In this document: piece after piece, positions 3,429 to 63,119 of the stretch
How positions within the stretch are numbered: the first letter of the stretch is position 1
Layout of the letters: every line of letters starts with the position of its first letter
Assembly: GCF_026151205.1 (NCBI RefSeq)
Contig: NC_087074.1
Coordinates: forward strand, 5,394,001-5,458,000
From: Bolinopsis microptera
Taxonomy: Eukaryota; Ctenophora; Tentaculata; Lobata; Bolinopsidae
DNA: 64,000 bases
Direction of reading: 5' to 3'
Program-made: the position numbers and the translations under genes
Notes under the pieces: generated by a model
Seen by the model: only the letters and a program-made list of their open reading frames with translations
Told to the model about the DNA's origin: nothing
Database searches by the model: none

Positions 3429-3488
3429 CTTGGTATACTAGTAAAACTACTTATCTTATTATTGATAACTGTGTTTGAATTATCTAAA

Positions 3489-28600: not shown

Positions 28601-31600
28601 ATTCATACACCCCTGCTACTATCCACTTATTTCGCAAGAACTGCTGGCAAGTCCTAATATTCATACACCCCTGCTACTATCCAGTATCGGCAATTATTTC
28701 ACCTAGTTACACTTACACCACTACTTGCTCGTGAAGGTAATTGATTTAAATTAGTTTACGATACTCACTATCGTAATCCATCATATTGATATATTTTACG
28801 ATACTGCTCATCATGCGTTATTCGTCTTTGCTCCACAACGACTCTTGGCTGGCGACACTTTTTGTCGAGAGTCAATTTAATACATAGTATTTGATCGGTC
28901 GCTATACGGCTGGGTGAGTGTAGAGTGAGAACGTGCGAGTACTTGTGAGTAGGCACAGTTTACCACAGCCCCGTAAGACTAGTCTAGTTGAGCCTCTCTA
29001 TTTTACACCAATTGTTTGATCTTTTATCTATCTTGGCAGGTATAGATAGTATCTCTCCTCCTCAATAATTAACTATTTTAATACTTTGTCAAAATATTTA
29101 AGGAATAATAAGGCGGAAGGAATAAGGCGATGACAATGAATACAAGAGTGTTGCAGATTGTTGGTCTGAGCTTGCTCCTCCTGACACCCTCCACGGGGAA
29201 TGAGACGAAGATGATAAAAGATCACTACGGGAACACCCCTACCAACCCTCCACCATGTCTTCTCACCTGTGTAGGATCCACGGGACATGGTGCAACAACG
29301 TGGACTGGAATTCCAGGACGACTATCTACAACGGTTGATATCTCGGAATGCCAGTTCGTCAGTACACCTATCGTTACCACCTCTATGAATGGTGATATTG
29401 ATTCATCGCACTACTACATGGTTGGGATGACCTCGCCTCAGGGTATGACAAAGGACAAGTTTGATATTGTAGTGATGGGATATGTTAAGACTGCTTATAA
29501 TCCAGAGATTGGATATAAACCAACAACGAGTGATGCAAACTACCGGAATTGGAACATCAACTGGATAGCAGTGGGGTTCACATGTTAACGTGAGAGGAGG
29601 CATAATTTGGTGACGGTGATCAAGGAATCGAAACGTTTGCCGTATATCTCCCGCACTTAACTTGGCTGGTGGCATTTTGTTGTTGTATTTATAAACCGAT
29701 TTCATTTCTTGAAATAATACGTCAGAAAAATAACAATTAAAATAATATTGTGTTTCATCTCAACTCTCAAGACAAAACTAAAAATCTTAGGTTAGAGAAA
29801 CGTAGTGCCGATTAAACGAGACAAAGTAAACTTACAGAGGTCTCTAAAAATGAGGTTTAAAATTAAATCGTGCATGTTCATATTTTTACTTTCCCCTCAA
29901 CATTTCTTTAGATTTTATCATAAAACTACCATTCTCTTGGGAATTGTGTCAGTCAATTGTGACTATTTTTACAACAGAATACCATATGTATTTTACAATG
30001 CATGCAATTTTAGAATGTAACGTTATATTTTTGCTAAATACTTTCCGAGGAATGAACAAAACAATTGTTTGAGTACGCTTTCGATCTGAGGCCTACTCTA
30101 AATTTTATGGATAGGAACCTTGGAGTAGTATAAACTAAGGGTTTGCAAATTAATGAATTGTGAAAAAATCATAGGGGGCATCCTATTATATTACATAATA
30201 CTCAAATTATTTGTTACAAATATATTACATTATAGCTATAACAATAGTTGTAAATAATTTTATATTCCCTTTACCTAATACAGAATTCGGTTATCACAGC
30301 ACAGTTCCATACAACACGTGACACTATTAACTATATACGACTGTTTGAGGTGCTGTATGTTGGAACACAGTACATGTTGCACTGGTTTATACTAAATTAT
30401 ACATGTGCGATTGTACAAGTAATCTAGTCGTCAGCACAATCCGGTCCCAGAAAAGTTGAGAACCTTGTTATATATATATATTATGTCGTTCATAAAAGCC
30501 TGGTTAACCACTCTCTTTACTTCGCCATAAAACAATTATTTCACCAGGTGTTTTAGCGAATCCTTCGAACGCGCTGATCTGATTTTATAATTAATTTATG
30601 TAAGTTCTTATGGCTGCCGTCATGTATTTGATTGTACCTCATTGCGCGATTCTAGTTTCAAAACAGTTTGAAATTTCCATATTTATCCGTTCAGGAGTTT
30701 ATAATATATAATGTACAATTTACCGTGAATTGAATTTAATGGTAAAATTCCTTCTGTCAAGCCAGGAGGGTACTTACCACAATCAACGCGATAACCTAAC
30801 TAAAGCTTTACTGCCCGGAGAGACCTACTATAGTTGTAGGCCGTTACACATCAGGTCATGTTATCCAGATCCAAGGGATCTGTTGATAATGATAGATGGG
30901 TCCTGGTGTGCCCAATAATATGGTACTAGTAATTGGTGTGCACCGGACTTGTATTTGGTACTCTTGAATACTTTGTTCTGATCCTTAATTGTTTTTACTG
31001 TATTTATTTTTCAGTCTTGGTGCTTGGCCGCTTGAAATTTTGTAAATACCAGGTTGTATACTACATGGCATAGTGTAGTAGTTTTGTTTGTGAGCACTGA
31101 CTGACCTTTGGTATTTCGGAGGTCATGGTTCGTTTGTCAGGCTGTTTATTATGTCTTGTACAGGTATTGACATAATGAACGTGTGGATGACTTTGTGTGG
31201 GGGTTAGGGAACACCTGCCCTCCTCACGGCAGATGTTCAGGTTCCCCCCTCAAACTTCTCCTGTAACTTGGGCTGATAAGTTCTTCTTACCCTGTGTATG
31301 TTTTGTAGTACAAACACTATGGCTGTCTTCAAGAGACAGACCTGTCTGGCAAGGAAACAGGGAATCTCACCTTTCACAGAGTCTCTGAGAAGGGACACCT
31401 GTGAAACCCTACGATAATGCGACTGTGCTTGTTATTTACTGCTTATATTTACTGTGTAAGATAGATATAGATAATTGAATCCTCTTTTAGCCTACCTTAC
31501 TCGGGAATATTATAGCGGGTTAATTTATGACTGGGAAAATTAATAACCGGGAAAAATATAGCGGACTTTCCCAAAACCCGCCAAATTATCCCGGTCATGT

Positions 31601-34600
31601 ATTTACCGGTGGCCGACCTTTCAAGTTTTTTTTTCAGAGGTCAACAAATTTTCAACCGAAATTTCTGTTTTTGTTACTTGTTAAATAAAAGAAGTTATTT
31701 CAATTTACAGTAATTACTGATATTACTCATAAATAGAAAAAAAAAGACACGTCTAGTATTTAAAGGAAAATAAATCTATAGCAATAATAAGTCAAATCTT
31801 CATTAAAGCGTATTCTCATTCTCATTCTCATTATCGCTAATGTCCCCTCCATTATCATTATTGATATCCCCCTGCTGCTGACCGTCAAATTCGAAGTTGT
31901 ATTGTTGTCTTAACAAGACTTTCATTTTGTCCGCTAATGGGGCTACTGCTCTGAAGGTCAGCCGGAGCTTAATTTCCTGCCCACCGCTTGGTATTGGGGA
32001 AAGTCTTGGCTTTGCATATTCAACTGCTCCAGTAATCAATCCACCGTGGACCATGAAATAGTGGCACAGTTTACTCACTTCATGGGCAAGAAAAGTGAGA
32101 ATCACGGTCCACCCTGAAATCTGATTTCTATAACCAAATTGTGATTTTTATAACGAAATTATGGTAGCAACCGCCAATAAAGTTACAGCCCTCCATCCAC
32201 TGCTTCAAAAGTCTTCTCTAGCACATATGAGACTTCAGGTAAAATATGATGATCACCACCCCCTTGGAACCCCATAATCTGAGTCGGCGGGTTTTTTATG
32301 ACTGGTAAAATTGTTGACCGGGAAAAATATGGCGGAATCTTCCAAAACCCACCACTTTATCCCGGTTATAATAATCCCGAGTAAGGTAATCAATTATTTC
32401 GTACTGTTAACTGTTTTACTCTAGCAAGTTGTTTTATATATTTCTAACTGTTATTTTATGTCGAACTGATGCCCTGTTCGGTGTCTTACAGGCAGAGAAT
32501 AACTAACAAGTAACTTTTTTCTTTTTTTAACTTTAACATAACGTTTTAAATAAATACAGGATTACAACATGGACATGACAACTCGCATTACTGTTACAAA
32601 CTCCCTGAAACTGGATGCGAAAGAGCACTTTAACCAGACAGCAGATGTTATCTACGGCTCTATATGCTGTCTGTGTTTCCTTATTGGAACAACAGGAAAC
32701 ATCGTGAGCTTCCTCTACTTCAACTCAAAGAAAAGGGACATGTCCAGTGTTATCTACATGCAGATAACAGCTAACGATGTGCTGGTCAGCCTAACCGTGT
32801 TTCCTGTTGGGTTTGTGTTCCTGTCTGAAAGAAGTGCTGGTATCGTATTCAGTACGAGTGTAGGCTGCGAAACTTGGTCTTACCTATGGGAAACAGTAGT
32901 TGCTCAGAGCAACTTCCTGGTCACGTGTCTGTCTATAACAAGAACAGTTTCACTGCTCCGACCATTCACACAACAGAAACTGAGTCACGTGATAATAGCT
33001 CCAGTAATATTCCTCGTGCTAAGACTAGCTACTATAGTAGCAGTACACTTCATAGACCAGGGTATGGAGGCCCGGTTCTACCCTCGCTTTGCACGCTGTG
33101 ACTTTTATCTTAACGAGACCCTAATTAACGAAGCTATACATCACAGCTTGCTAGTCAGCACTAACTTAGTCTACACTGCTCCCGCTTTTGTTGTGGGTAT
33201 AAGTTGTGTTATATCTGCTGTGTTGCTCACCAGAACAAGTGAACATGTCCAACAAAGACAGCTGCAAAAGACCAGGAACAGAGCCACAGTGACTATTCTA
33301 CTGTTCGCTCTACTGTACGTGGTCTGTAACGTTCCCTTGGTTGTTAACTACATCTTGCAGACGTACGCGGTGTACAGTGACAACAAACACTGGTACTTTA
33401 CGTTGTACCAGTTTGATACCCACATGTACTTCAACAATGCTATGAGGACTCTACTTCTGGCTGCTAACTCTGCTGCTAACCCGTTACTCTACTGGTGGAG
33501 GATGCCTCCTTTGAGGGGGTATATTAGGAGGATATTGGAACTGCAGAGAGAGAGGAGGAGAGGATGCCTCCTTTGAGGGGGTATATTAGGAGGATATTGG
33601 AACTGCAGAGAGAGAGGAGCAGAGGATGCCTCCTTTGAGGAGGTATATTAGGAGGATATTGGAACTGCAGAGAGAGGAGGAGAGGATGCCTCCTTTGAGG
33701 GGGTATATTAGGAGGATATTGGAACTGCACAGAGAGAGAGAGGAGGAGAGGATGCCTCCTTTGAGGGGGTATATTAGGAGGATATTGGAACTGCAGAGAG
33801 AGAGGAGGAGAGGATGCATCCTTTGAGGGGGTATATTAGGAGGATATTGCACACAGAGAGGAGGAGAGGTCCAAACTATGTCCTAGAAGGACGATCTAAT
33901 TGTAATGTTGTTCATAACAACAATGTTGAATCCACGTTTTAAGCTTGAATAATTAACTAATGACTAACCGGGTTTATAATTATATATATTTTAATTATAC
34001 GCGCTAATGCAGCAATGCTTCAAAGCAAACTTTTCATCATAATTTATGTCAAAATATTGCTTGAATCGTTCTATAAATTGTCGCATTGAGGCTTGAAAAG
34101 AATGGTTTGAATATTTCATTATTATTGCCCCATTATTTTTAAGTCCAGACACACATCTGCAGAAGCAGTGCGGTATTATAAAAAGGAATATATCCATAGT
34201 ACTAGCTACCTGGTCAAATGATTCAACATCTAGTTCACCAGGTGCCTTGACCCCGGTAATCACATATAATTAAAAATGCGTTTTTATCTTAAATAATTTA
34301 TATAATGTCTGTTTTTTTATGGCTGGCTTCATGTCTTTGCTTCTTGAGAATTGCAATAGCGCAATTTTAAATGCTAAAAGCTTGAAACCTTCGAACTTTA
34401 GTTCTGGCTGACTGATTTGAGGAACTCTAATCGGTTAATGAAAAATGAAACGTCCAAATAATTTACAAACCAAGTGACAAATGTCCGGTTATTAGAAACT
34501 CACGTCATATCAAAAGCTTCCCCGTAGGAGCTGAGAATGCAGTAATGAATGATGAGGTCTATAACCCAGACTAGCATAGTCCTGCAGGCGTCTATTAGAG

Positions 34601-37571: not shown

Positions 37572-37586
37572 CCTTGTTCTGATCAT

Positions 37587-38179
37587 ATGATTGGTTAAAA
37601 ACAGATTTGTACTAGTAATTGAAAATAAAATAACTGCATAATATTAGGAATGTTATTTTTAATGTTTTACTTCTTGCGACCTTGTTAAAGTTAGTTATAA
37701 CTGTCCACAAAATCAATTTGAAGTTGCAATATCGGAAAGGGAAGACTTAGACAACAGACTATTCACATTATTCGAACTTAAGTTTGAATAAACTTTAAGA
37801 CAATGAATCACAAAACAATCTGACTTACAATTACACAAACAAATCATAAAAACACAAAAATCATCATTAAAAAAACAAGACTGCAAACTTTTCCCGATAA
37901 AAGAGCACAAGTATGATCAATAACATACAGTCAAGAAGATATAACCCGGTAGTATAAATGATAAAGTACAATACTGTGCATGTCTTATCTCATGGTTGGA
38001 GGGTGTAATGTTACACCTCATGCTCCTTTGGAAATTAATTCTTATTACGATATCATACTTCAGAGAGTTTATCATGTGCAAATACTCAAAATTGGGTTTC
38101 AAATACTCCCGAAATGTATGGTGTCACCTTTAATGTCAAGAGGTGGTTACTGTCACAATATGAAACTTGTAAATATAGC
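37587..38179. other. intergenic between SLC35F6 and COMMD6-like genes
   Basis: About 590 bp without a supported gene; contains the upstream side of SLC35F6 and the 3' side of the COMMD6-like gene. Confidence 0.5.
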
Positions 38180-38924: not shown

Positions 38925-40130
38925 TCATTTCTTCCACCACAAACTGACACTGAAACTGACAGACAGTGACCTGACATGATGCCACCAGTGTAGAGGAAGA
39001 TACAACACATCCCCCGGTCCCAAATCAGCAATCCAAGCTGTTTTATCAGCAAGGTCAGGGAAATCTCGTAGAGCATTTGGAGACTCAACGTCAATTTGAC
39101 TTGTATTTTTTAATAAGTGATGCTGATGAGGGTGCATGTTGTCATGACTATCAAACATTATGAAGCGCTTGTATCCATAAACCTGACAAAATAGATTCTG
39201 ATAATGATCATGATGCAGGGGGGAGACGGTTCCTTCTGGACCAAACCAACAGTTTGTAACGACATCAGATTCAGAAACAGCACAATAATCAAGAGGGGTG
39301 ATGTCCTCTTTCAATCTAGTAATGTGATTGAATAGTTCATATTGGGCCAGGTACGCGACCTCATTTGAGCTTGTCAACATATAGGTTCTAATGAAGTCTT
39401 TTAATTTCAACAGTTTCTGAGACCATTGTTCGCTAGTGTATGATGAACCAATTTCGATTGGTACAGTTCTTTCACCGTGATTCTGTATTAGATATGATGG
39501 ATTCCATTTTTTCATAGCTGGCCAATGATCTATGACATTTTTCATGATAAATGGGGTGCTAGGGTTTAAGAGCTCGATGAATTTCTCTAAGGATGGTGCA
39601 TTGACTTGTGGAATTTCCTTATGATTTGACAAAAAAGGAAGGGGAAATTCGGCCTTTCTAACAGGTTCATGCTCGGTTTCACACAGGCTATCAATACTTA
39701 CATGCTGGCTTAGGAAGTCAGCAAGTTCTTGAACAAAGAGTTCTTCCCCAAAAGGAGCTCCCATGATTAATCCCATGTCACAGGACAGTATCGCCTCTGC
39801 GATTCGATCATCCCATGAAAGATTAACACTTTTTATAAAACAAATTGATCGATAGAGCTGCCTCCAAAATACGTCAACATCTTTCCAGTGCCCAATATTG
39901 ATAGTCTCCCAAATAAGATGTAATAAAATATCACAATCTTGAAGCACTTGTTTTCTAACGTTCACATCATAATCTTTAATCAGATGAGAGGTTCTCCCAA
40001 GTATTCCTCCATAGAGATCTTTTTCTTTACTGCAATAAAGTCTTGAAAATTCCTCTGCGATGACACTGCATGTAGAATAGAAGTTTGTAGCTACATGAAA
40101 GTTTTCATACGACAAACTATTAACGATCAT
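38925..40130 (-). CDS. KDM8: KDM8/JMJD5 JmjC-domain oxygenase
   Basis: An intronless frame of 401 residues from ATG at 40130. The N-terminal half (~1-180) is the helical JMJD5 N-terminal region. The C-terminal JmjC domain contains TPFIMKNVIDHWPAMKKW, RTVPIEIGSSYTSEQWSQ, YLAQYELFNHI, the Fe(II) motif LHHDHYQNL (HxD), HLLKNTSQIDVESP, and LPLHWWHHVRSLSVSFSVSL with the third iron ligand. These match human KDM8 closely and length is near its 416. Known activities are arginyl 3-hydroxylation and disputed histone proteolysis or demethylation; it acts in the nucleus with Fe(II) and 2-oxoglutarate. An acceptor-like ttgctag ends 8 nt before the ATG. No introns, unlike the vertebrate gene, so intron loss or retrocopy is possible. 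Confidence 0.92.
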   Translation of the reverse strand: MIVNSLSYENFHVATNFYSTCSVIAEEFSRLYCSKEKDLYGGILGRTSHLIKDYDVNVRKQVLQDCDILLHLIWETINIGHWKDVDVFWRQLYRSICFIKSVNLSWDDRIAEAILSCDMGLIMGAPFGEELFVQELADFLSQHVSIDSLCETEHEPVRKAEFPLPFLSNHKEIPQVNAPSLEKFIELLNPSTPFIMKNVIDHWPAMKKWNPSYLIQNHGERTVPIEIGSSYTSEQWSQKLLKLKDFIRTYMLTSSNEVAYLAQYELFNHITRLKEDITPLDYCAVSESDVVTNCWFGPEGTVSPLHHDHYQNLFCQVYGYKRFIMFDSHDNMHPHQHHLLKNTSQIDVESPNALRDFPDLADKTAWIADLGPGDVLYLPLHWWHHVRSLSVSFSVSLWWKK

Positions 40131-40241
40131 ATTGTTGACTAGCAAATAATAATTAATAAAAGCTAATTTACGGTGTAACTGATGTTTTTAAAGATAGGTA
40201 TAACACGGTATTGGGAACAAATTCAAAACAAACGAATCTTA

Positions 40242-44000: not shown

Positions 44001-47000
44001 GTTAACTGAAGTGACAGCTTATAAATATTCAAACCAAGTCGACCAGGCGTTTTCTACTTATGAGCACACATTCTTGTCATAGTCCTGATAATATTTCAAT
44101 AAACGTTTACCCTGTGGTGATAGTCCTTCATTTCCTTACACATCATGATAGAAAGATCACATACCGCACTTTTCTGCTGAAGAGTTTATCATTCTGACAT
44201 AATTTCTATTAAGAGTGTTGGAGTTTATTGAACAATTATATATTCTTATCAAAGGTCCTCAGAAGATCCTGTAGTAATCTGGTACTCTTGTTGATTTTAT
44301 AACTATTGTCTCCTCAGCACGATTTATCCCTGAAATAGTTTTAATATTTAACTATTAACGTTTCCGTACTGTATATAATATGCACTGTACACTCAGTACA
44401 ATGCTTTAAATTAACGTTAAAAATTTTAAAAGAAAACATGACGTTCATAAATACCCCGCTTATAACGAACCTATATTTTGACTCTGCCAACACGTCTTTG
44501 TCTCGCCCCCTGGTTAACATTGTTAGGCTTACCCCTCCTGCTACTCCCCTGCTTATCACTCAGCAGGTTAACCCCCGTCTTGTTACAGAAATAGATCACC
44601 GGGTCCAGTAAGCTGCTGATAGTAGGAAGGAAGATGATGTAGAGCGGTCCTAGGATGTGGATCTTATCATTCAGGTCGAATATCATCCCCTCCATGTCGA
44701 GGTCAGTGTAACGGTGGAGGGTCTGAACCAGCCATACGTAGAAGAATACACTGTAGAATATCGTGATGTTGAGCGCTACTAGGATGCTGGTTTTCAGCGC
44801 TCTCAGGCTTTTACCACTCGAGTTCTGTTTTCTTAGGTCCATCCTCTTTTGGAGAGACTTGTTCAGGTGTCTCTTTATGAATCCTCCTCCCAGGTTCAGA
44901 CCCAGCAACACAAAGTCTTTCCTCACCGTCTGCTCTGTTCTCGACCCTTTCCTCTTCTTCTCGTTGAAGTCCGTCAGAGGATCTGTCCGTTTTGTCAAGT
45001 TGGGATACTGAGAACTGTCTATGAAGTAAGGAGCTTTCCTCTCGTATCTCCTCAGAAGGGGATCAAACCCTCCCTCACCATCAGGAGACTGCTCAAACTT
45101 GCTTTTAGCCCCTTTTTTAGTGCTGTTTTGAGAAGGTTTGGAGACAGAACTTCTGTCGGGTCTCTTGTTCCACATGGGTATGATGTGGGGCTGGTTCTTC
45201 TTTTGATGGGTCCTGATGAAGTTCTGTGCTGCTTCTATGTCCCTCTCTGTTTCCGTGTCGTATGTCAAGTCACTACTGCTTAGTCTCAGAGGAGAGTCCA
45301 TAGTCCCCGAACTGTCTCCAGCTACCATGGCCGTTCTCTTGAATCGTAGCCTAGAAAGTAGACTTGGTTTTGTTGGGGCATTTAAAGTTGAGTATTTGAG
45401 GGCGATCACATCCACAGATTGACTTATAGGTGCTGATCTGGGGACAGTATCATTTTCCTCGTTTGACAGTTCCTTCTTCGAACAACCAGAGCAGTTCGAT
45501 TGATCTGAGGCGTATCCGTCTCTGGCCACACTGAGACTCAAGCTCTTAGCTGATGAGTCTGAGTTCTGCCTATTTACAGACTGGTTGCTACTCAGACCCG
45601 TCTGATCCGAGTGCTGTCTTGATAGTTCTCCTATGTTGGGTGAAAGCTGTGAAGGTTGTGCATTTGTGGACGCCCGCCGTCGAGCCAAGCGTTGCTCCCT
45701 CGCTAATGCTCGCGCGGGGCTGCGCGGTGGCAAAGTGCTGCTCTGTCGACCTCCTGGAGCTAACCCTCCTGATGTTGAACCTCCCGGTGCTAAACCTGCA
45801 ACCTGGTGCCCTCCTACGTGCAGGAACTGCTGGCTGCTGGGTGCTGAGAAGATGGTGGTCTGGATGGTAGGTGGACTGTCGGGGGAGTCTAGCTGCTGAA
45901 CCACACTAGGCCCGATCACTTTCAGAGTTAGCTTCTGTACTGTAGGAGTGAGGGAAGAGGTCCTGGATCCCAGAGGGGTCAGGGTTCCGTCACTGGTGGT
46001 GGGTGTTGTTGGTGCCACGACGATATCTGGAACTGTCGTAACTATGCCTTGTTGGGGTCTTATCGTGATCCCTGAAACGTCCATTACGGAGATGCTTGGA
46101 TTGGTGCTCATGTGTTGCAACTTCTGTCTGTGTACCTCCTCTACTTTTACTCTTGTTATCCTCCGGACTTGTTGCTTTGTCATTGGCTTCCTAGGTTGGT
46201 TCAGCAAGCTCATACTACCTGATCGCTGGAGTAAATTCCCTGCTGAAACTGTTCGGGTTTCCAGGCGAGGCTTTCTTTTGTCTCCGACACTAGATACACT
46301 GAATTGACCGTCTATAAAACTAACCAAGGTTACTGAACTCCTCTTCACGGATGATGGGGAGGTTGAGTTCACACTTGAAGTGTTGCTGAACTTGCCAACG
46401 AGTCCTTCCATTAGCGAGTGTCTCTTCTGACCGATCATGCTGAATCTGTCAGGTCTGATACTAGCGACACTTACTCGGGAGGGTCGTCTAGAAGCAATGC
46501 TGGCTATGCTTACCAGACTATGCTTCTTTTGGAGGTATTTCTTTAAGCTCCTGTATTTGCTGGCTGTAGCTTGGATATCCTCCGACGAGCCGAAATCTAG
46601 AGAGGTCACTGACAATCTGGTAGGGTTCATCCCGGTCTGGTTTAGACTTGTAGTAGAAGAGAATCCTGAGCGCTCACCGTCAGTATTGAGACTTGAAACA
46701 GATTCAAAATGAAGCTCAACCTTAGACTCCTCCGCAATACTACCACTTATCTTAGAGCTCATCCCACTTGCATTGCTATCAACACTAGCGTTACGTCTGT
46801 AAGGGAACTGGGATGTGTTCATTATCGGCTCAGATTGGGAAGCGGTGATGTTATTCCATGATTTAGATTTACCATATTGACCCATGGTGTTGGAGGGTGT
46901 AGATCGGGGGCTGTTTGAGGAGGAGCAGATGGAGGGGAGATTGTAAGGGTTGTTAATAAGAGGGTGGGTGGTGTACGCTACACTGTGTGCTCGTATCCTC

Positions 47001-50000
47001 TTGTGCTTGTGTTTAGTTCGACCCCCAGTTACATTGATCGTAGCTGTAGATGGTTGTGACTGAGTGAAGCACTGCAGGATTATTGGTTCTGATTGAGACG
47101 ACAGGGGGTTGAACACTTCTGCTACAAAGTTATCAGGCAACTTGGAAACTTTCACTCTACTCTTCTTGACCGCCTGCATTGCTGCTCTCATTAGAGCCTG
47201 CCTGTCTGCATGTCTTTGTTTCACCTTCAGTATCAGTACCACTGTAAACAACAAAGTGAACAAGATGGGGAGATTCACCGTCAGACCACCCATAAAAATA
47301 AAGTTGTAGCTCTGAAAGTAGTCCCCAGCCACACAAACTGTTAGATCAGCCCAGTAGTCCGACCCGAACATAACCTGCCTTGCAAAGGAGTACAATATCT
47401 TGTAGACCCACACAAACACCACAATACCCAGGGTGGACTTGTACCTGATGAGCTGTTTAGACCGGAGAGGCATGTAGAACACAACACACTTGATACCTAG
47501 CACGTACATGGTGATAAAGAGACCCATGGCAGGGAGGATCTCCACACAGGAGGCACTGATCGGACAGAACCAGGCTAAGGAGACTGGGAGGACTCTGTTG
47601 TTGAGGAGAGTGAGAGCGGAGAGAGAGGAGACGAGACCTTGGAGGAGGTCACAGATACCCAGGTTTATGTAGAGGATTGTGGTGGAGTTCTTGCCTTTAG
47701 AGGTGTCACGTGTGAGGAGGAGGAGGAGGTGGAAGAGGGAGATTCCGTTAAAAAGGGTCGTCAGGAAACTCACTAGAGCTGTTATAACCCCAAAGTAGAG
47801 GTTTGCCACGGAACCTACCCCAGGCTCATAATTCCTCATTGCTGGTTGCCAGGGGCCAGATTGTTCCGGAGAGGTTCAAGCCAAAGCCCTCGGGCCAGTA
47901 GGCCTCGGATAGGTAGAGGAGCTGAAGTAAGACCTGGATGAGTGTAACGAAGAATTTGAAAATCAACACACAAAACGGCAGTTTTTCCCAAGGGCTGATA
48001 ACTTGAGCTCGCATCTATGAGAAGGGGAGTCTGGGACTCAAGAATAAGGAGTCTGGGACTCAGGAACAAGGGAGTCCAGGACTCTTGAGTGAGGAGTCTG
48101 GTAGTCAGAAAGTGGAACTTTAATCGGTACTCGGAGTCATGTCAACGAAATGTTCTTAGCAATGGGATTCTGATTAAAAGAATAAATGAACCGACTGGCC
48201 GAGTCTTCCCACTTTGACTATTCTAAAATAATAAATTAATTAAGTGATGGGGGAAGATATACGCATGCTTAATTAAACCAGTTTTGTGCGGCCACAGAAA
48301 TTCTAACATATTCCTTTAATGCCATTACCCGGAAAAAGTTTAGTTGTGCCGCCTAATTTAGGACCCAATTAAGAAAGTCGACTTTGGCAAGTTGAGAATT
48401 AACTGTCAGTTGATGGATTTTCCACCGCGAATCAGCATCCTGGAACGTGCGACTCTTGTGATCAAAATTGGGAGACAATTTCCTAAAAAAGGTTAAATTA
48501 GCGATTAAATTTTAAAGAATTATCATTAGAATTACATCCTGGGAAGTTTCCTATCAATTTATCCGTCAATTATACCAATTTATGCCATGGTTTCCCATGA
48601 ACATTTCACGCTTGAAATTTCATTCAAAATAGCTTTAGAACCGCAAAAATAATCAAAAATCACAATCTTGAAAAACGTCAAGAGACATTTTGGCAGAGTT
48701 ATTAATTACTTATCCCTGATTCATGGCAAGAAACAGTGTTAATATTGACAAAATCAAGAGGTCATCCAAGATAGCAAGATGAACGTCATCATGCTTGCTG
48801 AGACTATTAAAAGTCAAGTAATTCACAAAGCCTCTCACTTGATTAAGTAATAAGTAATTATCATGATAAAGCAATTACCACGCACGTGCACACATCTGAG
48901 TAGAAGTGGAGAAAGTGTAGTACATATCTAAACTAACAAGCAGCTGAGTACACCAACATGTAAACAAATCCAACTTTCTCACTTTCTCTCACCTAAACAA
49001 TTAACAATGTGCTGGAGTCAGAGAGAGAGAGACATAGTAGTAGTTGAGTCAGCACACAGCGCCGCTTTCTCAGCGCTTTTGACTTTGTTTCGCAGTTGCA
49101 AACAGAGACATAGTAGTAGTTGAGTCAGCACACAGCGCCGCTTTCTCAGCGCTTTTGACTTTGTTTCGCTGCACAGTTGCAAACGATCGGTAGCAGATTG
49201 TGCAGTTGTTCTGCAAATGGTTGGTCTTTATGCGCCGTTTAATGCTTCTTAATGGATGAAAGCTTGTTATTTCCAATATTTCTTTACTATCTTTGTTGTA
49301 TAAATATGTGTGATTGAATTTGGGGTGGGTTATTGTCAGTTGTTATTGGGAGGGATAATTTCAGATAACTTTGGTCTCCAACCAAAGTTCCTAGCCTCTG
49401 GATTTTTCACCCTGAATCATGATTATACTAAAAGTAAAGGGAAGTAAAGTGCCAGTGCCCAGTGGTGAAAAATATATAAAACATTTGACCGAGTGAGAGC
49501 TAACCCTGTCCTCTATAAGAGCTGCTGATGACAGTGTCCCTGTACGAGAAGACATATAACGATTACCTGAAAGAGCACCGCCCCTGGCTCCACTCCGGTC
49601 GCCCCTCCTGGTCCTACTACTACAGACCCTGGCTCTACTACCCCTACAATAGGAAGTACTATGAAAAGTACAGGTTCTACGATCCTTACTACGATATCTA
49701 CTACAATGATTACTTGGATCACACTGTGCCCAGATACAGATACACGCATCTTCCAGTACGTTGGCATGGTTACAAGCACTGTTTTGGTAGAATGTTGAGA
49801 TTTGTTGAGAATTTTGCAAAACGTATCTTCTTAATATCCCTCAATAAAGTCTTAAACGTCTGTACTAAAATTCTCTAACCATTCTGAACTTGTATACTGT
49901 TAACTCATAATATGGTCATGTTGACCTACAGTGGCTCGGTAGGTACCCACGTATACATTTGTTGAGATGTTACACTTCGTGCTCCTAAAAACCCTGTCTT

Positions 50001-53398: not shown

Positions 53399-56300
53399 AC
53401 ACTAGCTGTATATTAAACTATGTGCTGATTATCACGTATAAATACTGTGCTAATTATATGGCAATAAGTAGGATCAACTGATCAGGTTATCTATGTTGAT
53501 TTCTTTGTTATTTTGTCTGTTTTTGGGTCATTTGACGAATTTAAAGCTGGCTAACTTTTGTGATTTGTTTATTCTTAAAGTACAAACTAAGTTAAATTGG
53601 ATTTTAGGAGCCCCAACTGGCAACTGTTTCCGTAAAAATGTCACATAGCAGCCTGCAGCTGCTGATTTACCGCGGTTGCAGCATTTGTTAGCAGTCGTTG
53701 CCATGGCAACCGATCTCTTTTAGCAGTATCAGATTACACAGATCTTACTATAAACCACTATTTCTAAAGTACCCTTATTAATCTGTATGAATATGTAATT
53801 AGATTTTAGCGATTTAGAAAAATAACTTTAAGCATTGATTTTGAGGTGTTTAACAATTTTGTATAAATTATGTACTGTATTTACTATTGATCTATTGATT
53901 GTATGTACATATTATTATGTATATTATCCCCATATATACTCGGAGTATTATTGCGTATCTTTGAATATGTAGTATATGAACTGTATGTATAATTAATCAT
54001 AGTATACTCATTTAAATAATATCACTTATATGTTTTTAACCCAACTCCATTCATTTAAATAAATTTGGATATCACACATTCAAGCAATTTGCACTCAACC
54101 ATTGAAATCTCAAAATGTTCACTCAACCTTATCACATAACTCACTAGCACGATCAAAAGAAACTGTTCCGGATAATCCCAATCTCCTGAGAACTGTCTTG
54201 GAGACCGTTAGTCTACTGATGATGGAGGGTTGTCATGGTAACGGCTGATGATGACCCATTGACCCTTTACACGTAGGTTTGTGATTCTTATGAATTTCTA
54301 AAAATAGTTCCTTAAGTATTGGATTATGAAACTAAAGCTTTCATGTCTGGTTCTGCATTATTTTGATCGTATTCAAGTATCACGCCACTAAAAATGCTTA
54401 GTGTAAGTAAAAAGGCGAATTTTGTCCACCGAATGAATTTATTCGGGGTTACAGTAATCTGCATTGTTCTGAACCGGACCCGGCTTAATTTGCCAAGGAA
54501 AAACGCGCAATGACTACCCTGAACAGTGTAAGAGTAAGCCCAACTTTATTACCGACACCATTAATATTATGCAGACAACTTAATATCATTAAACGCAAAA
54601 CTACATTAAACGTATCACTCCTCCTCGCAGTAATGCAGACCGAGGAATTAATATTACTGTTTTAGTATTCGTTATTAGACTAGTTTACTGTTAAGTGCGT
54701 GTTCCACTTTATGTTGTGTGTGTGTTGCACCTAAATTAAATTTCCTCCACAACTAGTTCACCCCAGTGTAAACCGTGACCACGTGGGGCTAGTTGGGTGG
54801 TACAATTGTCGTTTAGAGGTGGGCAAACTTTACTTTCTCCGGTCTTGAACTGTTTTTAACAAGCTTCCCTGTCTTTGAGATGGTGTGAAAAGTGCAGGTG
54901 TCCTGTAAATACCCTGCTTCTTACGTATACTGTTAGTTATGCTCTGGTTCTATTTCTTGTCCGTTCAGGTCTTCTAGAAAGGTGTTTTTAGCTCAGATAA
55001 TGGCTGTTGCCCTGCCGCACCCAGACCACCCAGACCATGGCTATCTTCCAGGGTTTTCTGCGGGTTCTGAGGCACTACCAGGAACGGAGATTTAGGTATT
55101 ACGATAAGGGAAATCGTAGTCAACCAACAATTACTATAGGAATAGGAATAGTAAAGTAATATTATCGACTTAAGAGCGTGTTCTATAATTGTGGTAGAAG
55201 AGCTGATCCCTCAACCTAGCTTAGAAACTATTTACTTTGACAAGGTTGGTAAGAATATATTTAGACAGTAGGTAGACATATTTTAATAATGATATTTTGT
55301 GATTTCTTGAACAAGTAAATCTGTCCAAGCCTTACTAGTACTAGTTCTTATAAACGCGTTTGAGTCATTCGTTCAGTAAATATAATACTGAATACCAATT
55401 AATTATTCTACTTAGACGAACTCTTTGAAGAGTACCACTTCTAAGCCTCTAAGCCCTAAGGTCGAGCCTAGTGGCACTAGTTTTTGATGCCATTTAACTT
55501 TTACCCTTTGGCCTTTGCATTTGTTATATAATATAGTGTCGGTGTCGTTTCTTAGCACCTGTGTTCTCACAACCGCAAATCTTCATATACTCGTAGTCGT
55601 GGGAAGCCCTTCAATATTATAATATCCTTATTTTTAGTTCAGATGAATAGTTTTGACCTGTTTCACCGACAATAAAATACCTTCTATCATTTATTGTTTT
55701 TGCTTCAGCTATTTCTCTATTTTAGTCGTTCTCAAAGTTCAACTCTGCAATCGTCGCCGTTAAAATCCGATATATTTTCTCAAAAGTAGGTACACTGTGA
55801 TACTAATAAATACTAATAAATACTAATTGGCGAGTGAAAATGGCGAAATTTCAATGAAATTTTACGAATTATTCCGCTTAGCTTAGTTGGACCACTAGAA
55901 TAACTCGTTTAATTAAAATTAGTCACACTTTTACTTAGGTGTAGTAATTGGTCAGAGCGCACCAACACACGATTTTACGTTTTACTAATACGCAGAGTTT
56001 CCAATAAACTATTAACTAAAACGACACTAGCCAACCTCGTTGAATTAATGTACACCTGCTACCTGCTATCAGATCCTTATTATTTACAATTGACAATTAC
56101 AACGCAAAACTTGTCTATTAGTTTGATGGTTCGGAATTTTTACATTTTACATTTTCCAGTGGCTTTTTTTATCCAGACGTACCTTAATTAAATTTTAAGT
56201 AAACTTTCACCCAACTTAGCTTTTCACGATACATAACATTTATAGGTATACGTGTACTGTACATCTGAATCAAATCCTAAATTGAGTTTGCAGTTGAAAA

Positions 56301-57124
56301 TAACAAAAACAGTTTAACAGTTGATAAAGATTATATTATTTAAGAAGGATAGTTGAATATGCTATACCAAACATTTAAAGTTCAAATATTCTATTTTGAA
56401 AGTTGGTTAATCTCACATCTTCTATTCAGAACAAATATGAAAAAGTTTTAAAATCCAGTGCAATATCTATTGGACAATATAGTTGTTATTTAAGAATAAT
56501 GTTTTTGAATTATGATTGATCTTTTCGACTTATAATCTGCTTTGTAGAGGAGATCGCATTCTCATCAGCTTCACCTGAAAACAGTTGGAGGTACAACAAG
56601 AATAAGAGTTCATTTTAGTTCATAACTTATATTGTTAGATTATATCAATGTATTGTTTTTGTATATTAGAAGTTACCTATATACTATGGTTTTCTCGAAA
56701 GTATTTCCTTGTATTTGACTTTCGTCAAGAAAGTACTGTTACTTTCGGTTCAAATGTTACTTGTTACTTGCTAACGTCATATGCTTGACGTGTTTAGAAT
56801 CTAGATGACAGGGGGGGGGGGGGGGGCACAGGGGGTGGGGTATTTCGGTCTTTGAACTTACTTACATCGAAGACAACTTGTTTACTTTTTGTTTCTTAAT
56901 AGAATCCTGTGCAATCTTTCCCGCGTTCAGGCGTCCTTTAGTTTTCGTTGTTTTATTAACTTTGAAATCGTACCTAAATTCTGATATCTAAGTTAAAATA
57001 AGCTGATGTTTTCTCAACTTGGTAGCAGCTTTTGTTTCTTTGTTTCAGACACTTCATCTCTTCGTATATACTTATATACCAATATGCAATATATACCTAC
57101 ACTTACGTATGTACCGCTAAAATG
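53399..57124. other. 3.7-kb intergenic region
   Basis: No gene supported. A 41-codon frame from ATG at 55036 (MAIFQGFLRVLRHYQERRF) is worth noting but has no context. Near 56812 lies a G homopolymer. The rest is AT-rich. Confidence 0.45.
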
Positions 57125-59756
57125 TTATTGTATTAAAAGATATTTGCATATATTTCTTGATATAAATGTTATGTAATGATATGTAATAATATTGTGAACT
57201 TTGTAGTGAACTGTGACTAGTTGTGTCAGTAGAATCTTACTCGGACATGGGAGGATAAGGGTATCGTAACTCCGCGTTTCTGTAGCTGATCCCTCACATT
57301 GTTCTCCACCGTGTTCAGGAGTAGGGTTGGTACAGGATCTAGTTCGGGTTTGTGTTCCTGTACCACACTCTGTACAACAACCGGGCCATTCTTCGAAATC
57401 AGTCCATCCACCATTCACAGGACATCCTTGTGTGTTGCATTCCCGAGTCTCAGTGCTACCTCCCTCACATTCTTTTCCACCGCGTTCAGGAGTAGGGTTT
57501 GTGCAGGTTCTAGTTCGGGTCTGTGTTCCTGTACCACATTCTGTACAACAACCGGGCCATTCTTCGAAATCAGTCCATCCACCATTCACAGGACATCCTT
57601 GTGTGTTGCATTCCCGAGTCTCAGTGCTACCTCCCTCACATTCTTTTCCACCGCGTTCAGGAGTAGGGTTTGTGCAGGATCTAGTTCGATTCTGTGTTCC
57701 TGTCCCACAATCTTCAGAACACTCAGACCAACCACCGAAATCACTCCATCCACCATCAACTGAAATATGTGGTTCTGATAGACAGTATTAGTAATACATA
57801 TTATAGTGATAGTATCATAGTTGTATATTGAAAACTTAACCAAATTATTGCAAATTCGCTCATTGCCAAATTAGAGCGGAATTTGAAATATTTCTCCACT
57901 TTAAACTTTTCCAAAGTTAAGAGATCGGTCCGATCTCTTAACTTTGGAAAACTTTAATTGCTTATCTTAAATGTGGATAGCGGAAATTGTAGCCTTAATC
58001 CTTTATGGTATTTGGGGATTGTTTTCATCTCCTTATTTTATAAATGTAAGTCCTTACCTGTCGATGGGAGGACTTTTCGGCAGTAAACAGTGGTATCTGC
58101 GGGGCTATCAGTCCAGATGATTTGTTTATTTGCTGACATCGAGCTCCATGGTGCTCCATCGGGGATATAGCCAGAGTTGCTGTAAGATGCTGCATATTTC
58201 CAGTTGTCTCCTTCAACAAAGTCCGCTTTCTCCCACCCATCATCAGCTGTATTTGAGCAACTCCAAGAGTTGTCAGTCATGAGAACATTGTCCCCTGCTG
58301 CATCTTCGACGGCGGCCATAATCCCATAACCCCCTCCTATGTTAACACATTTAATCCCTAGCACCTGAGTGGTCGAAGGAATGTTAAGAGTAGACACCTG
58401 GTCGTAGACCCCTTGCCCATCTACGTCTATCTGAACTCCATCAACCCAGAGTGTCATCTCATCGTCACAAACCACCTTCATCGTGAATTGTTGCTCTGAA
58501 ACGAGTAATTGCGGATAAAATGAGCTTATTAATGGTTATTATTGATATTTGCTCGGATTGCATAACATGGAAAATGAAGGAAATAAAGCTGTCGATAAGA
58601 AGAATTAAAATAATTTGATAAACTAACCTACACGATCATGAAATTAATAAGTAATCAACTAATTAACGCAGTTAACCTCCACATTTGAGATTTCTGCTGT
58701 TAACTCCTGCCATATCCTGAGGATTAGCACCGAACTCTTTGTTCTTCAGCCAGCACCGGGAGGTGGCTGGTCGGTGGGTGACTGAAACACAGCCAGTCTG
58801 GTCATCACACAATGCTGTACAGTCCTCTATGGACACCACGTTATCAACCTGAGATGTGGTTCGGGTCGAGAAGATGATTGGACTTTTGGTGTTATTTTCG
58901 AAAATGTTGGCTTGTTTTATCTTTACTGACGCTGTAATATGCCTAAACGTAGAAGACTTCAGTCGATAGTTCGATATCTCTCGAAATCAGTACCGCTCAG
59001 ATTATTAAATATATCATACCTGTTTGATGTCAGCTCCATTGAAATCGTAGCTTTCTTTAACACATCCCTCTTCGACTATAAAGATTCCGTGGTTATTATT
59101 AGAAGGACGATTGTCACAATGGGAGAAGATTTTTATTCCGGCTAGTAGCTTTAGATTGCTAATAGATTTTGTGCCTCAAAAAACAAATGTCCACTTACGA
59201 TTTAAGAGTCTTAGGTGTTGCTATAGAGTAAGATCAAGTTTTGTAATTTTTGAGTTGTCACCATGAAAAACAGGCCTTGTCAAATGCTCCAAGATCTACT
59301 TTATACTGTACATTATAACATTTAACCAAATCTCTGTAAAATCTTTTTGGGTTGCTTTCGAGCCGATACCCAGTAATTCGGGATAAAGGCGGTTATTAGT
59401 GTCCAATTAGCTAAGATTTATCGAATCGTTATTGCCGAGTACAGCTGCCTTCGGGTAGTGCTCCTTTGTCTATTACAATTGTAAATGAATGGGAAAAGCG
59501 AGCGACCGATTGTATTCTCCGTATAATTTTGCATTTGAGAACGGTCATTCAAATTAATATCATTTCTTTTTGGGAAAGAAAGATACTGGCAGCGGTCCAT
59601 TCTACCCTGACCCATGATTATGGGTTTGGTAAAATAGTTCACAATGCAATTTATTTTTTACTTAAAATATCAAAATATTTCCCTGTAAAATTGTAGCTAA
59701 CCTTCAGCATGAGCCAATAGAGAGAGGGCGAGGAGACAAAGCTGAGTGCGAATCAT
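57125..59756 (-). CDS. secreted Apple / galactose-binding-like / TSP1 x3 protein
   Basis: Four exons: 59702-59756, 58677-58925, 58058-58495, 57125-57759; all junctions GT-AG, phase 1, frame kept (~458 residues). Exon 1: signal peptide MIRTQLCLLALSLLAHA. Exon 2: a PAN/Apple-like module with IEDCTALCDDQTGCVSVTH, RCWLKN and a final LKCG. Exon 3: a beta-rich domain with FTMKVVCDDEMTLWVDGV, VLGIKCVNIGGGYGIMA and a DNSWSCS motif, like galactose-binding-like extracellular domains. Exon 4: three thrombospondin type 1 repeats (GGWTDFEEWPGC, CGTGTQTRTRTCTNPTPERG, ECNTQGCP). The second and third share nearly identical DNA. The last repeat lacks its final Cys and runs into an unrelated tail, so a further exon or a truncation is possible. 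Probably matrix or mucus. An acceptor-like aatgcag ends 6 nt before the ATG. Confidence 0.8.
57907..57951. repeat. perfect 22-bp hairpin, 1-nt loop
   Basis: ttttccaaagttaagagatcgg and its exact complement separated by one t, in the intron between exons 3 and 4 of the TSP1 gene. About 60 bp further, tatttggggattgttttcat resembles 62577-62600 next to the TIR element, so both may be remnants of one family. Confidence 0.85.
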
Positions 59757-60015
59757 CGAAGGCTGCATTCAAACAAACATATACTGGAATTAAAAATTAA
59801 GTTAAAATAAATTCCCGATATCATCTTCCCTTGAAGAAGACACTGACAATATTAAATGTATGCTAAGCAAGAAATTAATGCATAGAATTAGAGATGTAAG
59901 GTTGAAATTGATCGGTCATTGTTGTTAATTTGGATTATGAGCTGTAAGGGCTGCATATATCAAGACCATATTTGGCCGCAATTTTCTGGAGAGCTTTGAT
60001 ATAGATTATAATAAC

Positions 60016-60344
60016 TATAGCAGGAACCCGTCTAACTCTAGAGTGGTGTTCAGCAGATTAAAAGCAAATGGAAGGTGAATGACGGAGGAACCTATATCGA
60101 TAGAAGTAGAACAGGCAACTATGTAAAGAAGAGTTGACAGATTTCGTTTTTTTGTGATGACGAAATATCTCAAAGGTAGACAGTTTCCAGGCAGTCCGAT
60201 CACAAAGCAGGCAAAGAACCCGAACGCTAGCAAGCCATAATAAATTCTGTACATACATAAGTAGGTCAATATATGGAAAGTTTCTCGGACTACTTTATCA
60301 CAAACGTACGTTAAGACCTTTAAGAACTGAATAAAACTGATCAT
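60016..60344 (-). pseudogene. GPCR fragment joined to a MITE end
   Basis: The minus-strand frame encodes only TM1-TM2 of a class A-like receptor: YYGLLAFGFFACFVIGLPGN, then TKKRNLSTLLYIVACS and SSVIHLPFAFNLLN, very like the start of GPCR 3-type receptors. It then runs directly into TTLELDGFLL and a stop, which is the TIR of the MITE at 12319-12694 read backwards (tagcaggaacccgtctaac at ~60018). TM3-TM7 were not found on either side. A dead copy, or a receptor piece carried in an element. Confidence 0.7.
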
Positions 60345-60753
60345 TATTTAAAGCTGTGGCTCGGATCGCACTGGCCCACGGTTACTTTTATCTATTTATA
60401 ACCTAGGACACCGGTATAGTAGTAAAATAATTAATGAGGGAACAACTCATAAGCCGAGGCAGCGGGCTGATGGTTCGATGGTACCTAATTAAACGTTTAA
60501 ACGTGTAATTTTGATAAAATCGTAATACTATTTACTTAATCCGGCAAAGATAAATGTGTGCAGGAGCCATGAATACATTTATATAAGAATATAGGTGACC
60601 TTCACTTGTATCCTACAACGGGTGGACTCCTTAGTCGCCAACCTGTTACTTAGCCTCGATTAAAGTAGAGTTAGTGCCACAACAGCACAACTAATATCAA
60701 ATTTTATAAGTGCCTGAATTATTATAATTAAAATCGAGCTACAGATTCGAATA

Positions 60754-61908
60754 GGGTAAAGCACATAATTTTGTCATTTTTTGGCAATTTTCCGACTGTC
60801 TGATATAAACCATGGGTTTTAACCTCGTCTGAAATTCCGATTTAGATGAAACCTCCACCATGTTATAGTAGACAGTCTAGGCAAGTTCTAACACAAAAAT
60901 GATCGAAATTGCTGGGGTTGAAGATGTTCAAAAAAATTATTTTGAAAAAATGACAAAATTAGGTGACTTTACTTAATTTTGTCACCCCGAACGTAATTTT
61001 GTCACTTGAAGATTGTGCAAAAAGTAACCGTTTCTCGGTATTTTAGACTACCTGGATGCATCATTCGAGCGCTTTTTTACCAACATTGACCTCAAAAATC
61101 CCAAAGATATGATATTTTCATAGTTTTGTAGCTTGATGAAAAGATGACACTTTTTGGGTATCTAATCTTAGAAAATAGCCCCGAATGCCCCTGAAACCAC
61201 TGGCATCTTGAAAAACGATTGGTTCTAGGCCTAGGTTGAAATTTTCATGTCTGTAGATAGATCACTTGCTTAGTAATTTCATCAAATATTTTTTTAGTCA
61301 TTTTAGATTGAAAAAATCAGATTATCCACCTAATATTTCTCGGCGAAAATATGCTATTATAAGTGTTATGCTATTATAAGTGCCTTATACATATCCTATG
61401 GGCAAAAAAACTTCAGAATAGTTGTATAAGGCCATTTTCAACACAATCTGTGATTTACAAGAAATTTGAGAAAGGTCGATTTTTTTGACAAAATTAGGTA
61501 CTTTTGGCAAAATCGAACCTAATTTTGTCACCCTCTGTAACTTGAACAATCATTGCGCTAGAGACTTGAAAATTTGTACGTATACTTCTGCTGTAGAAGA
61601 TATTTGAAATATGCAATGGCATGAAGCTAGCTCAATTACTTTTGAAATAGCAATAAATCAAAATTTTGAAAATTCCTTAAGAAAACCTTAAGGATCTTAT
61701 TTATTTTTCGGGTTAACAGTTTCCCCTTCATTTTTGACACAGATGCAAAAGAGCTAGAAACTTAAACTTTGTACGAGCAGTTTCAGCAAAGTCTAAGCTT
61801 TCTTTTTATACACAATCCTTTTCTTTCAAGCTGAAATTCCGAGCCGAGGCAGTTTTTCAGAGCAAAATGACAAAATTAGGTACCCTGACAAAATTATGTG
61901 CCTTACCC
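60754..61908. mobile_element. 1.16-kb TIR element with internal ACAAAATTAGGT motifs
   Basis: Ends GGGTAA(A/G)GCACATAATTTTGTCA and complement, flanked by TA on both sides, as in Tc1/mariner-type insertions. Inside, tgacaaaattaggt or its complement recurs near 60950, 60980, 61485, 61530 and 61868. No transposase-like frame. Superfamily tentative. Confidence 0.65.
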
Positions 61909-61910
61909 TA

Positions 61911-62452
61911 AGGATAAATAGTTTTATAAGTATTAAGTAGTTAATATTCTTTATCAAATTAATTAAAGGTCTGGCCAATCCTTATTTAATAACCAATTTG
62001 TAATGAATAATAATTTTAATTAACCCTGCTGTGATTGGGTTTGATTTGTGATATGATAAAATAATATCTGTTAGTTTATCCAATAGAATATAGTATTGCG
62101 ATTACTGCATAAATCTTATCTGTAAAATTTAAATTAGTTATACAGCAGTGACCCACATATCCCCAAATTGCAAATTAAGATGATATAAGGGGTTTCACAA
62201 ATTCTTACTTAAAAGATTGATTACGTAATATGTGAACGACCCCTAACGCAAAATGAGAACGCTGCCAAATTCGGATTGAAATTATGCAAGTGTTTTTTCA
62301 TACATTTCTCGTCGATCTTTATTTATTTTTTCTAGTATCTCTGTTTTAAAAAATGCCAATTTTTCCCTATTGGTAAATTGCAGCTATTCATTTCTATATC
62401 CAATATCCATAACATTTCAACCAAATGTGCAATTTGTATAAAAATATAGAAT
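61911..62452. other. spacer between two TIR elements
   Basis: No gene seen. Includes gattacgtaatatgtgaacg near 62219, also found at 25169 inside the piggyBac-type element. Confidence 0.4.
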
Positions 62453-63119
62453 TACCTTACGAGACATATTTCATTTTATAATCGACATAATTCCGGTGAC
62501 CTAAATGATTTGGGGACGAAAATATGGGATTTGTTTCCGAAAACCACCGCATTTCGTACCCCAAATTAAATCATGGTATTTGGGGATTTTTTTCATTTCT
62601 TTATTTTACAAAAATAAAACCCAATATTTGAGAAAATCAATAAAATAAAATATGAAATTTGAAAAATTAGAAGTCAATTTCTTCTTGATCTTCTGGTTCA
62701 GGGACGTTTCTCTCTCCAGTGTAGTCCCAGGTGTAGGCACCTCTAACAAGCTGTTTCATCTTATAAGTAGTTTCTCCGGCGCCTTTGAAAGTTAGTTTTA
62801 ACTTGACTTCCAATCCTCCAGACGGAATAGGAGACCGCCGGTGTTTGTTATCCTCCACCACTCCCGAAATTTCTTAAAATCATTTTTATTTCATTCATGA
62901 TCGAATACTAGCTTTCATTTGTTAGATGAATCATATTTATAACTTAGTACTTACTATATTGATAGTAAATCGACTAAGTCATAATTAAAGAGAATACGTG
63001 AAAAATAATTTGGGGAAAATAATGATGCTGACCTAAATTTTGGTAGTCCGAAAATATGGTGTTTTTTTCGGAAAACCACCGACTTTCGTACCTTTTAAAT
63101 ATGTCTCGTAAGTTAGGTA
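62453..63119. mobile_element. TIR element with palindromes and small antisense ORF, copy 2
   Basis: Ends TACCTTACGAGACATATTT and AAATATGTCTCGTAAGTTAGGTA (a 4-bp extra near the right end). Two palindromic blocks (~62510-62565 and ~63045-63092) share cgaaaatatgg and ggaaaaccaccg. Between them an antisense frame (62667 to ~62873) contains RRSPIPSGGLEVKLKLTF and KMKQLVRGAY, homologous over ~55 residues with the frame in 31493-32388. Same layout, same TACCTTAC start, clearly diverged DNA: two members of one family. Product unknown. Confidence 0.65.

Follow-up and report, generated by a model that had tools for sequence, protein, structure and literature searches.

Within a 64,000-nucleotide stretch of the genome of the ctenophore Bolinopsis microptera (RefSeq assembly GCF_026151205.1, contig NC_087074.1, positions 5,394,001 to 5,458,000; hereafter the window), we characterized two short inverted-repeat elements, element 1 and element 2, each carrying on its minus strand a remnant of the same small gene. 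Genome mining (264.65 Mb, 232 contigs) revealed that the peptide readable in these remnants is the C-terminal half of a HIRAN domain, and that the genome hosts TA-targeting two-gene transposons in which a DDE_1 (pogo-like, DD35D) transposase is accompanied by a separate small HIRAN gene. Judged by their sequences, the two window elements look like internal deletions of such transposons, which took out the transposase and the 5' part of the HIRAN gene. Coordinates without a contig or locus prefix are window positions, L-numbers designate extracted genome loci and C-numbers contigs.

Two short inverted-repeat elements with a common peptide

Both elements (Table 1) had been reported in an initial annotation made from the sequence alone, and both are real. 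Element 1 carries TACCTTACTCGGGA at both termini (chance expectation in the window 0.35 matches with at most 2 mismatches) and has arms of 27 nt that are 89% complementary, and element 2 has arms of 19 nt that are 95% complementary, its right end being TACCTAACTTACGAGAC, i.e. the same end split by 4 bp. The shared ends TACCTTAC of the initial annotation are thus retained in a refined form, as a TA target site lying outside the element (TA-CCTTAC...GTAAGG-TA) with an interruption on the right of element 2. The two internal blocks described as palindromic are likewise paired in both elements, but they are direct repeats located near the ends, and by inference candidate protein-binding sites. Between them, the antisense peptide common to both elements was recovered by tblastn with a full-length relative (family A, below), inside open frames at 31806-32147 (L001:1814-2155) for element 1 and 62670-62873 (L029:1501-1704) for element 2. 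The DNA of the two elements is alignable over 11 bp only, in agreement with the earlier observation that the peptide was kept as the DNA diverged. No transposase match was found inside either element.

Table 1. Positions of elements 1 and 2 and of their parts in the window
Feature	Position	Strand	Description
Element 1	31493..32388		TA included at both ends; putative non-autonomous internal-deletion derivative of a HIRAN + DDE_1 transposon
Element 1, left terminal inverted repeat	31493..31519	+	starts with TA followed by CCTTACTCGGG
Element 1, subterminal block, left copy	31524..31598	+	75-nt direct repeat, 84% to right copy
Element 1, HIRAN gene remnant	31872..32081	-	residues 90-159 of the 177-aa family A protein; tblastn 57%, E 3.3e-24
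Element 1, subterminal block, right copy	32295..32369	+	
Element 1, right terminal inverted repeat	32362..32388	-	
Element 2	62453..63119		putative derivative, older; order as in the family A element: left end, HIRAN 3' part, right end
Element 2, left terminal inverted repeat	62453..62471	+	TA followed by CCTTACGAGACATATTT
Element 2, subterminal block, left copy	62487..62560	+	74-nt direct repeat, 76%
Element 2, HIRAN gene remnant	62706..62873	-	residues 104-159 of the 177-aa protein; tblastn 73%, E 1.8e-24
Element 2, subterminal block, right copy	63019..63092	+	
Element 2, right inverted-repeat arm	63097..63115	-	4-bp interruption of the end; TA at 63118-63119

Identification of the HIRAN domain

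Genome searches with the two peptides led to longer frames, including a frame of 207 amino acids (aa) in locus L063 (family A). Against the HIRAN profile PF08797 (curated cut-off 24.7 bits), this frame scored under the cut-off (E 4.4e-4, 20.4 bits), as did the family B protein (E 6.6e-5, 23.1 bits), and the family C protein passed it (E 1e-5, 25.7 bits). Scanning the genome with PF08797 returned 14 places, ten of them over the cut-off and 13 with frames of 178-234 aa. The remnant of element 1 in the window gave no PF08797 match by itself in the profile scan, and the HIRAN proteins had no further Pfam domain over cut-off.

The structure of the family C protein was predicted with AlphaFold from seven unaltered translations, with block means of the predicted local distance difference test (pLDDT) of 71-83 for residues 31-100. 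Submitted to Foldseek, this model retrieved HLTF HIRAN structures as its top five PDB matches (E 4.4e-4 to 9.1e-4, probability 1.00, template-modelling score 0.57-0.66 by target length), followed by the bacterial structure 3k2y and then by Kluyveromyces lactis Rad5. A profile built from three families also matched HLTF chains only in the PDB (5/5), weakly (E 0.35-0.48), and single-sequence searches of solved structures missed HLTF (three unrelated matches for family A; avidin, E 0.0073, for family C). The NNPYD motif, and with it the NN and Tyr residues of HLTF, is kept in family C, and NN alone in family B. The last 40 residues are acidic in families A (13 D+E, 4 K+R) and C (14 D+E, 2 K+R). 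The module that the initial annotation described as shared and unrecognised is therefore indeed shared, but recognisable by profile and fold searches as HIRAN.

A complete two-gene transposon and its putative derivatives

The family A element spans 3,486 bp (L063 3118-6603) between TACCTTACAAGACATTTTT ends, of which 24 of the first 30 nt are alike. Close to its left end it carries, on the minus strand, an uninterrupted HIRAN gene (207-aa frame, 177 aa from the ATG). Divergent from it, on the plus strand, the transposase occupies two open stretches, 4389-5405 and 5560-6171, presumably joined over a GT...AG intron. The joined protein matches DDE_1 (PF03184) over cut-off (E 7.6e-14), with a catalytic triad of D244, D361 and D397 and 35 residues between the last two (DD35D).

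Element 2 aligns to this transposon in three segments, namely its left end (A 1-182, 65%, E 0.009), the HIRAN 3' part (A 268-428, 77%, E 1.5e-31) and the right end (A 3340-3486, 72%, E 6.7e-17), and since these follow in the same order it is best read as a probable internal deletion. Element 1 would be one as well, because its HIRAN part matches A (338-470, E 1.6e-13), its ends are alike (weak alignments to A, E 0.14-0.5) and its remnant sits in a like place. The fallback explanation of the initial annotation, that the peptide was what remained of a larger element, is thereby borne out.

Other long frames were examined in this context. An 870-aa frame in L061 running into the peptide was rejected as transposase, being a reverse-transcriptase (RVT_1) frame, and in the 3.9-kb interval between element-2-type ends of L072 the long frames look, by reading, like a nested long interspersed nuclear element (LINE), with no transposase seen. 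A fold for the transposase was dropped, the model being too poor, and a profile search of solved structures returned a single opsin (E 0.57). Reverse-transcriptase-type frames do lie in or next to these transposons, at L061:2457-5066 (RVT_1) and L063:1-2937 (979 aa, by reading). By eye, the start of the family A transposase (MSLHRYF, L063:4389-5405) resembles a PCNA box (Qxx[ILM]xxF[FY]) minus the Gln, as does, again without Gln, an upstream stretch of family B (RTDIRHFF, L073:2815-3420); family C fits less well.

HIRAN genes beside diverged transposases

Transposases and HIRAN genes were located by separate genome searches, HIRAN places being the matches listed. Ten places were matched over at least 345 transposase codons (the two exon matches of A counted together), and in nine of them a HIRAN frame lay within 2 kb, at a distance of ~0.4-1.5 kb. 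They distribute into four families whose transposases are 32-50% identical: family A (one place), family B (three places, 38-39% identical to A), family C (four places, 32%) and family D (one place, C3:1230746, 36% identical to A and 50% to B), with the two genes divergent in the first three and sharing a strand in D. The tenth place, C9:10823035, is decayed (3 stops). Family B encloses both genes within matching ends, TACCTTAGGTG(C/T)AAAAAATTT, and its transposase matches DDE_1 over cut-off (E 1e-9) with the same three Asp as A; the right end of family C is TACCTTAGTGCAAG. Six places, counting that of the query, carry a family C HIRAN stretch that is 99-100% identical over 982-989 bp, and recent activity is therefore suggested.

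Across all 89 transposase rows, 13 had a HIRAN start within 2.5 kb among the HIRAN matches listed: eight long places, the two rows of A, two tails by family B HIRAN genes (C1:470832, C6:5687906) and one fragment (C1:17742604) whose distance of 2.4 kb to an element-1 copy is probably fortuitous. Conversely, a transposase match lay within 2 kb of nine of the 14 PF08797 places, one of these being a 3' tail only; among the remainder, one was ~5.1 kb from a transposase and four had none, three of these four being family C derivatives. A function-related bias of short derivatives towards the HIRAN end was not supported, as 19 of the 89 rows match just the last ~160-185 transposase codons and may be derivatives or last exons.

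Equal-scoring 178-aa HIRAN frames over the Pfam cut-off were also observed at C13:9465989-9466234 and C2:12084464-12084709, and may represent a fifth family; the nearest listed transposase match is ~5.1 kb from the C2 frame, which was excluded from the family count, and none is listed for the C13 frame. Separately, a ~540-bp repeat lies between HIRAN and the right end of one family C copy (L074 ~2484-3024), with 31 other places at 95-100% among the scored matches.

Target site, copy number and age

The initial annotation had described a two-member family. A search with the ends and the peptide revealed many further copies: the exact 21-nt end of element 1 occurs 303 times and the exact 19-nt end of element 2 118 times, with none for the reversed controls (both counts being identical for forward and reverse, each was taken as one set of places), and element 1 alone occupies at least 40 near-full-length places (40 of 783 candidates scored). 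Using a search without TA requirement, both ends were located in 22 of 24 distinct element-1 places, 20 of which have TA on both sides and two CA on the left, with differing outer flanks; an earlier result that all copies were TA-flanked came from a search that had required TA, and was rejected.

Twenty distinct exact-end copies of element 1 (24 of 28 loci yielded the element) diverge by only 0.1-2.2% substitutions from their consensus, so element 1 was recently mobile. Element 2 is older: five other places match 600 or more of its 667 bases, at 74-87% identity.

Of the 303 element-1 ends, 100 were listed; they include 27 neighbouring pairs within 8 kb, the other 46 ends being unpaired. Three spacings recur, at 125 bp (5 pairs), 242 bp (7) and 1,031-1,091 bp (6); each of the nine remaining pairs has a size of its own, between 358 bp and 5.9 kb, one being 872 bp. 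Four intervals of 2.9-5.9 kb between element-1-type ends (C1:12911696-12915618, C1:21515508-21520113, C3:2759181-2762052 and C3:3041979-3047880), three of them with a HIRAN match (C1:21519440, C3:2761075, C3:3046404), are candidates for the autonomous partner, known by coordinates. Apart from these, element-2-type matches occur in every unit of two tandem arrays, L067 (C1:6394000-6403900, units of ~4.5 kb, containing a 636-aa frame) and C7:17867203-17877995 (units of 3.5-3.6 kb).

Selection on the peptide

Nonsynonymous divergence was lower than synonymous divergence in all 28 between-lineage pairs, 16 of which are saturated at synonymous sites. The ratio of nonsynonymous to synonymous substitution rates (dN/dS) was 0.21 between family A and element 2, with 15, 13 and 33 differences at the three codon positions, and 0.23 between L062 and element 2. 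Less strict values were obtained for element 1 against L064 (0.48), for A against its own short derivative L062 (0.71), and for C against A, L062 and element 2 (0.34, 0.62 and 0.63, at dS of 1.4-2.1). Between lineages, the conservation noticed earlier is thus rightly attributed to selection on the protein.

A different picture emerged among the short copies themselves. The eight copies of element 1 that were ranked by DNA show 25 distinct substitutions, of which 3 are synonymous, 4 nonsynonymous, 1 a stop and 17 noncoding (expected 1.7, 5.5, 0.3 and 17.5); these copies look neutral, 25 changes giving low power. With 12 copies ranked by protein added, the 20 copies gave 11, 6, 1 and 66 changes against 6.3, 18.0, 0.9 and 58.8 expected. 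The low nonsynonymous rate of such mixed sets (ratio 0.11 in 24 copies, and the 20-copy counts above) was rejected as a sign of selection, because most copies had been picked by protein rank and the deficit is best read as an ascertainment effect. In addition, an in-frame stop interrupts the peptide stretch at seven of 40 element-1 places (rows matched by eye). These patterns fit selection on the full-length HIRAN genes and little or none on the short copies.

Neighbouring genes in the window

Nine open frames of the window were scanned: three match 7tm_1 receptors over cut-off, and a fourth matches a Cupin_8/JmjC protein, its N-terminal part giving a KDM8-like match slightly below the cut-off. 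The receptor-like and JmjC/Cupin_8 frames (2424-3428, 32569-33576, 44471-47839 and 38925-40145) are ordinary host genes; the receptor frame at 32569 starts ~180 bp past the end of element 1.

Discussion

The explanation that we favour combines two-gene transposons, short relics derived from them and an accessory role of the HIRAN protein, and we regard it, taken as a whole, as probable. Its anatomical part, with the two-gene transposons and the transposase-less elements 1 and 2, is very likely right. Internal deletion of complete elements would have produced elements 1 and 2, and the transposase of complete elements would move them. The HIRAN protein may act as an accessory transposition factor on DNA 3' ends, most likely by holding or presenting the 3' ends of the transposon or of the donor site, or by directing the complex towards the 3' ends of forks or breaks. 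Short 3' overhangs remain after excision of the Tc1/mariner type. In HLTF, according to passages of PMC4666394, the HIRAN domain binds single-stranded and fork DNA and has no affinity for DNA duplexes; Y72 and Y93 hold a dinucleotide of single-stranded DNA between them, and NN90,91 and Y93 count among the DNA-binding residues, the NN90,91 mutant binding none of the DNA substrates tested. A reference cited there states in its title that HIRAN binds 3' DNA ends. By analogy with HLTF, the 3'-end-binding role is a tentative proposal to which we give somewhat less than an even chance.

Several points weigh against the favoured explanation. On the transposase side, only one complete family A copy was found, and the putative transposase-bearing partner with the exact ends of element 1 is represented by candidate intervals only. 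The Pfam scan of the family A transposase showed no DNA-binding domain (family C gave only sub-threshold helix-turn-helix matches, E 0.16-0.2), and the transposase model is too poor for a fold (pLDDT 45.5). The decayed tenth place has no HIRAN frame within 2 kb, 76 of the 89 transposase rows, all but one of them short fragments, have no listed HIRAN start within 2.5 kb, and family D and the left end of family C are known by coordinates only. On the HIRAN side, families A and B remain under the Pfam cut-off, family A has neither NNPYD nor NN, the AlphaFold model has a mean pLDDT of only 57.4, its HLTF matches superpose with a root-mean-square deviation of 5.1-5.5 Å, and sequence search gets to HLTF at E 0.35 at best.

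The preserved peptide might instead belong to the small elements themselves, as self-standing units coding for and needing it; the initial annotation had raised this possibility for elements under 900 bp coding for something other than a transposase. An open frame in 33 of 40 element-1 places and the nonsynonymous deficit of the 20 mixed copies would speak for it, but that deficit is tied to the protein-based choice, the DNA-chosen copies look neutral, and the same ends also bound copies of 125 and 242 bp, which have no room for the peptide. The remnants also lack the N-terminal half of the domain: the peptide starts inside HIRAN (residue 90 or 104 of 177). The short elements are not protein-coding units in their own right, and we hold this alternative to be extremely unlikely. 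An origin of the HIRAN gene by capture of a host exon, carried along as passive cargo, accords with the occurrence of HIRAN in the host proteins HLTF and Rad5 and with the known capture of host sequences by transposons. A passive cargo is, however, hard to reconcile with HIRAN beside the transposase in four families as diverged as these, with frames of 178 aa to 234 aa at 13 of 14 PF08797 places, and with purifying selection between lineages, which make it very unlikely.

That the HIRAN gene belongs to another mobile unit, inserted into the transposon, is the least plausible of the possibilities considered and earns hardly any credit: insertions within elements do occur here (the LINE in L072, the ~540-bp repeat in L074), but in A and B a single pair of matching ends encloses both genes, and diverged families show the pairing again, at 0.4-1.5 kb. 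A role of the HIRAN protein in regulating or protecting the element instead of in DNA transfer, as a repressor on the subterminal repeats or as a decoy for host repair or silencing, deserves more consideration: its gene is separate and, in three families, divergent, its tail is acidic in A and C, and the subterminal repeats would be expected to bind some protein. The HLTF HIRAN binding preferences given above (passages of PMC4666394) include no affinity for double-stranded DNA, and a site-specific repressor is therefore not favoured; we judge regulation or protection doubtful.

Tc1/mariner and pogo elements are generally believed to require a single protein. A second conserved protein with the DNA-gripping fold of HLTF would be an uncommon kind of accessory factor among eukaryotic DNA transposons, and through it the use of DNA ends, forks and repair by such elements could be approached directly; its near-identical HIRAN copies leave family C open to experiment. 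By a broader analogy, pogo-like animal transposons might encode their own 3'-end reader, steering integration or donor-site repair at forks or breaks with a TnsE-like logic and kept through the divergence of at least four families, an idea that we consider speculative and unlikely.

Comparison with known systems

No HIRAN-bearing eukaryotic transposon appeared in the titles and abstract starts of the full-text literature matches listed (Repbase and most subscription journals being outside this search), nor did a full-text search yield a paper combining HIRAN with pogo; passages of a pogo survey mention no accessory protein, and a paper that matched HIRAN and Nematostella mentions HIRAN only as of possible mobile bacterial origin. 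The transposons described here resemble the pogo group of IS630-Tc1-mariner elements by their DDE_1 catalytic domain, by their D-D-D triad spaced as DD35D (range used for the group, DD29-56D), and by their TA target, short inverted ends and 3.5-kb length, within group ranges given in passages of PMC7386202. They differ from that group, described in the same passages with one or two frames encoding transposases, by a second gene for a HIRAN protein. A DNA-binding domain of the group was not recognised in the Pfam scan of the family A transposase.

The HIRAN protein is like the HIRAN of HLTF and Rad5 by the fold match of its predicted model, by the PF08797 profile and by NNPYD in family C, but unlike them it is a free-standing small protein within a eukaryotic DNA transposon. 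In its working, hypothetically, it may recall TnsE of Tn7, an accessory target factor acting on recessed 3' ends and the sliding clamp, according to passages of PMC5371812, in which the Drosophila pogo transposase is also stated to interact with PCNA; Tn7 is bacterial and uses another transposase class, and the likeness claims no homology. Finally, elements 1 and 2 are comparable to Tc1/mariner miniature inverted-repeat transposable elements (MITEs) as short TA-flanked derivatives, element-1 ends pairing at 125, 242, 872 and 1,031-1,091 bp and at other spacings. MITEs have ends in common with a larger transposase-bearing element and no transposase of their own, as does element 2, which aligns in order with family A. 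Unlike Tc1/mariner MITEs, both window elements keep a readable relic of an accessory gene, not of the transposase.

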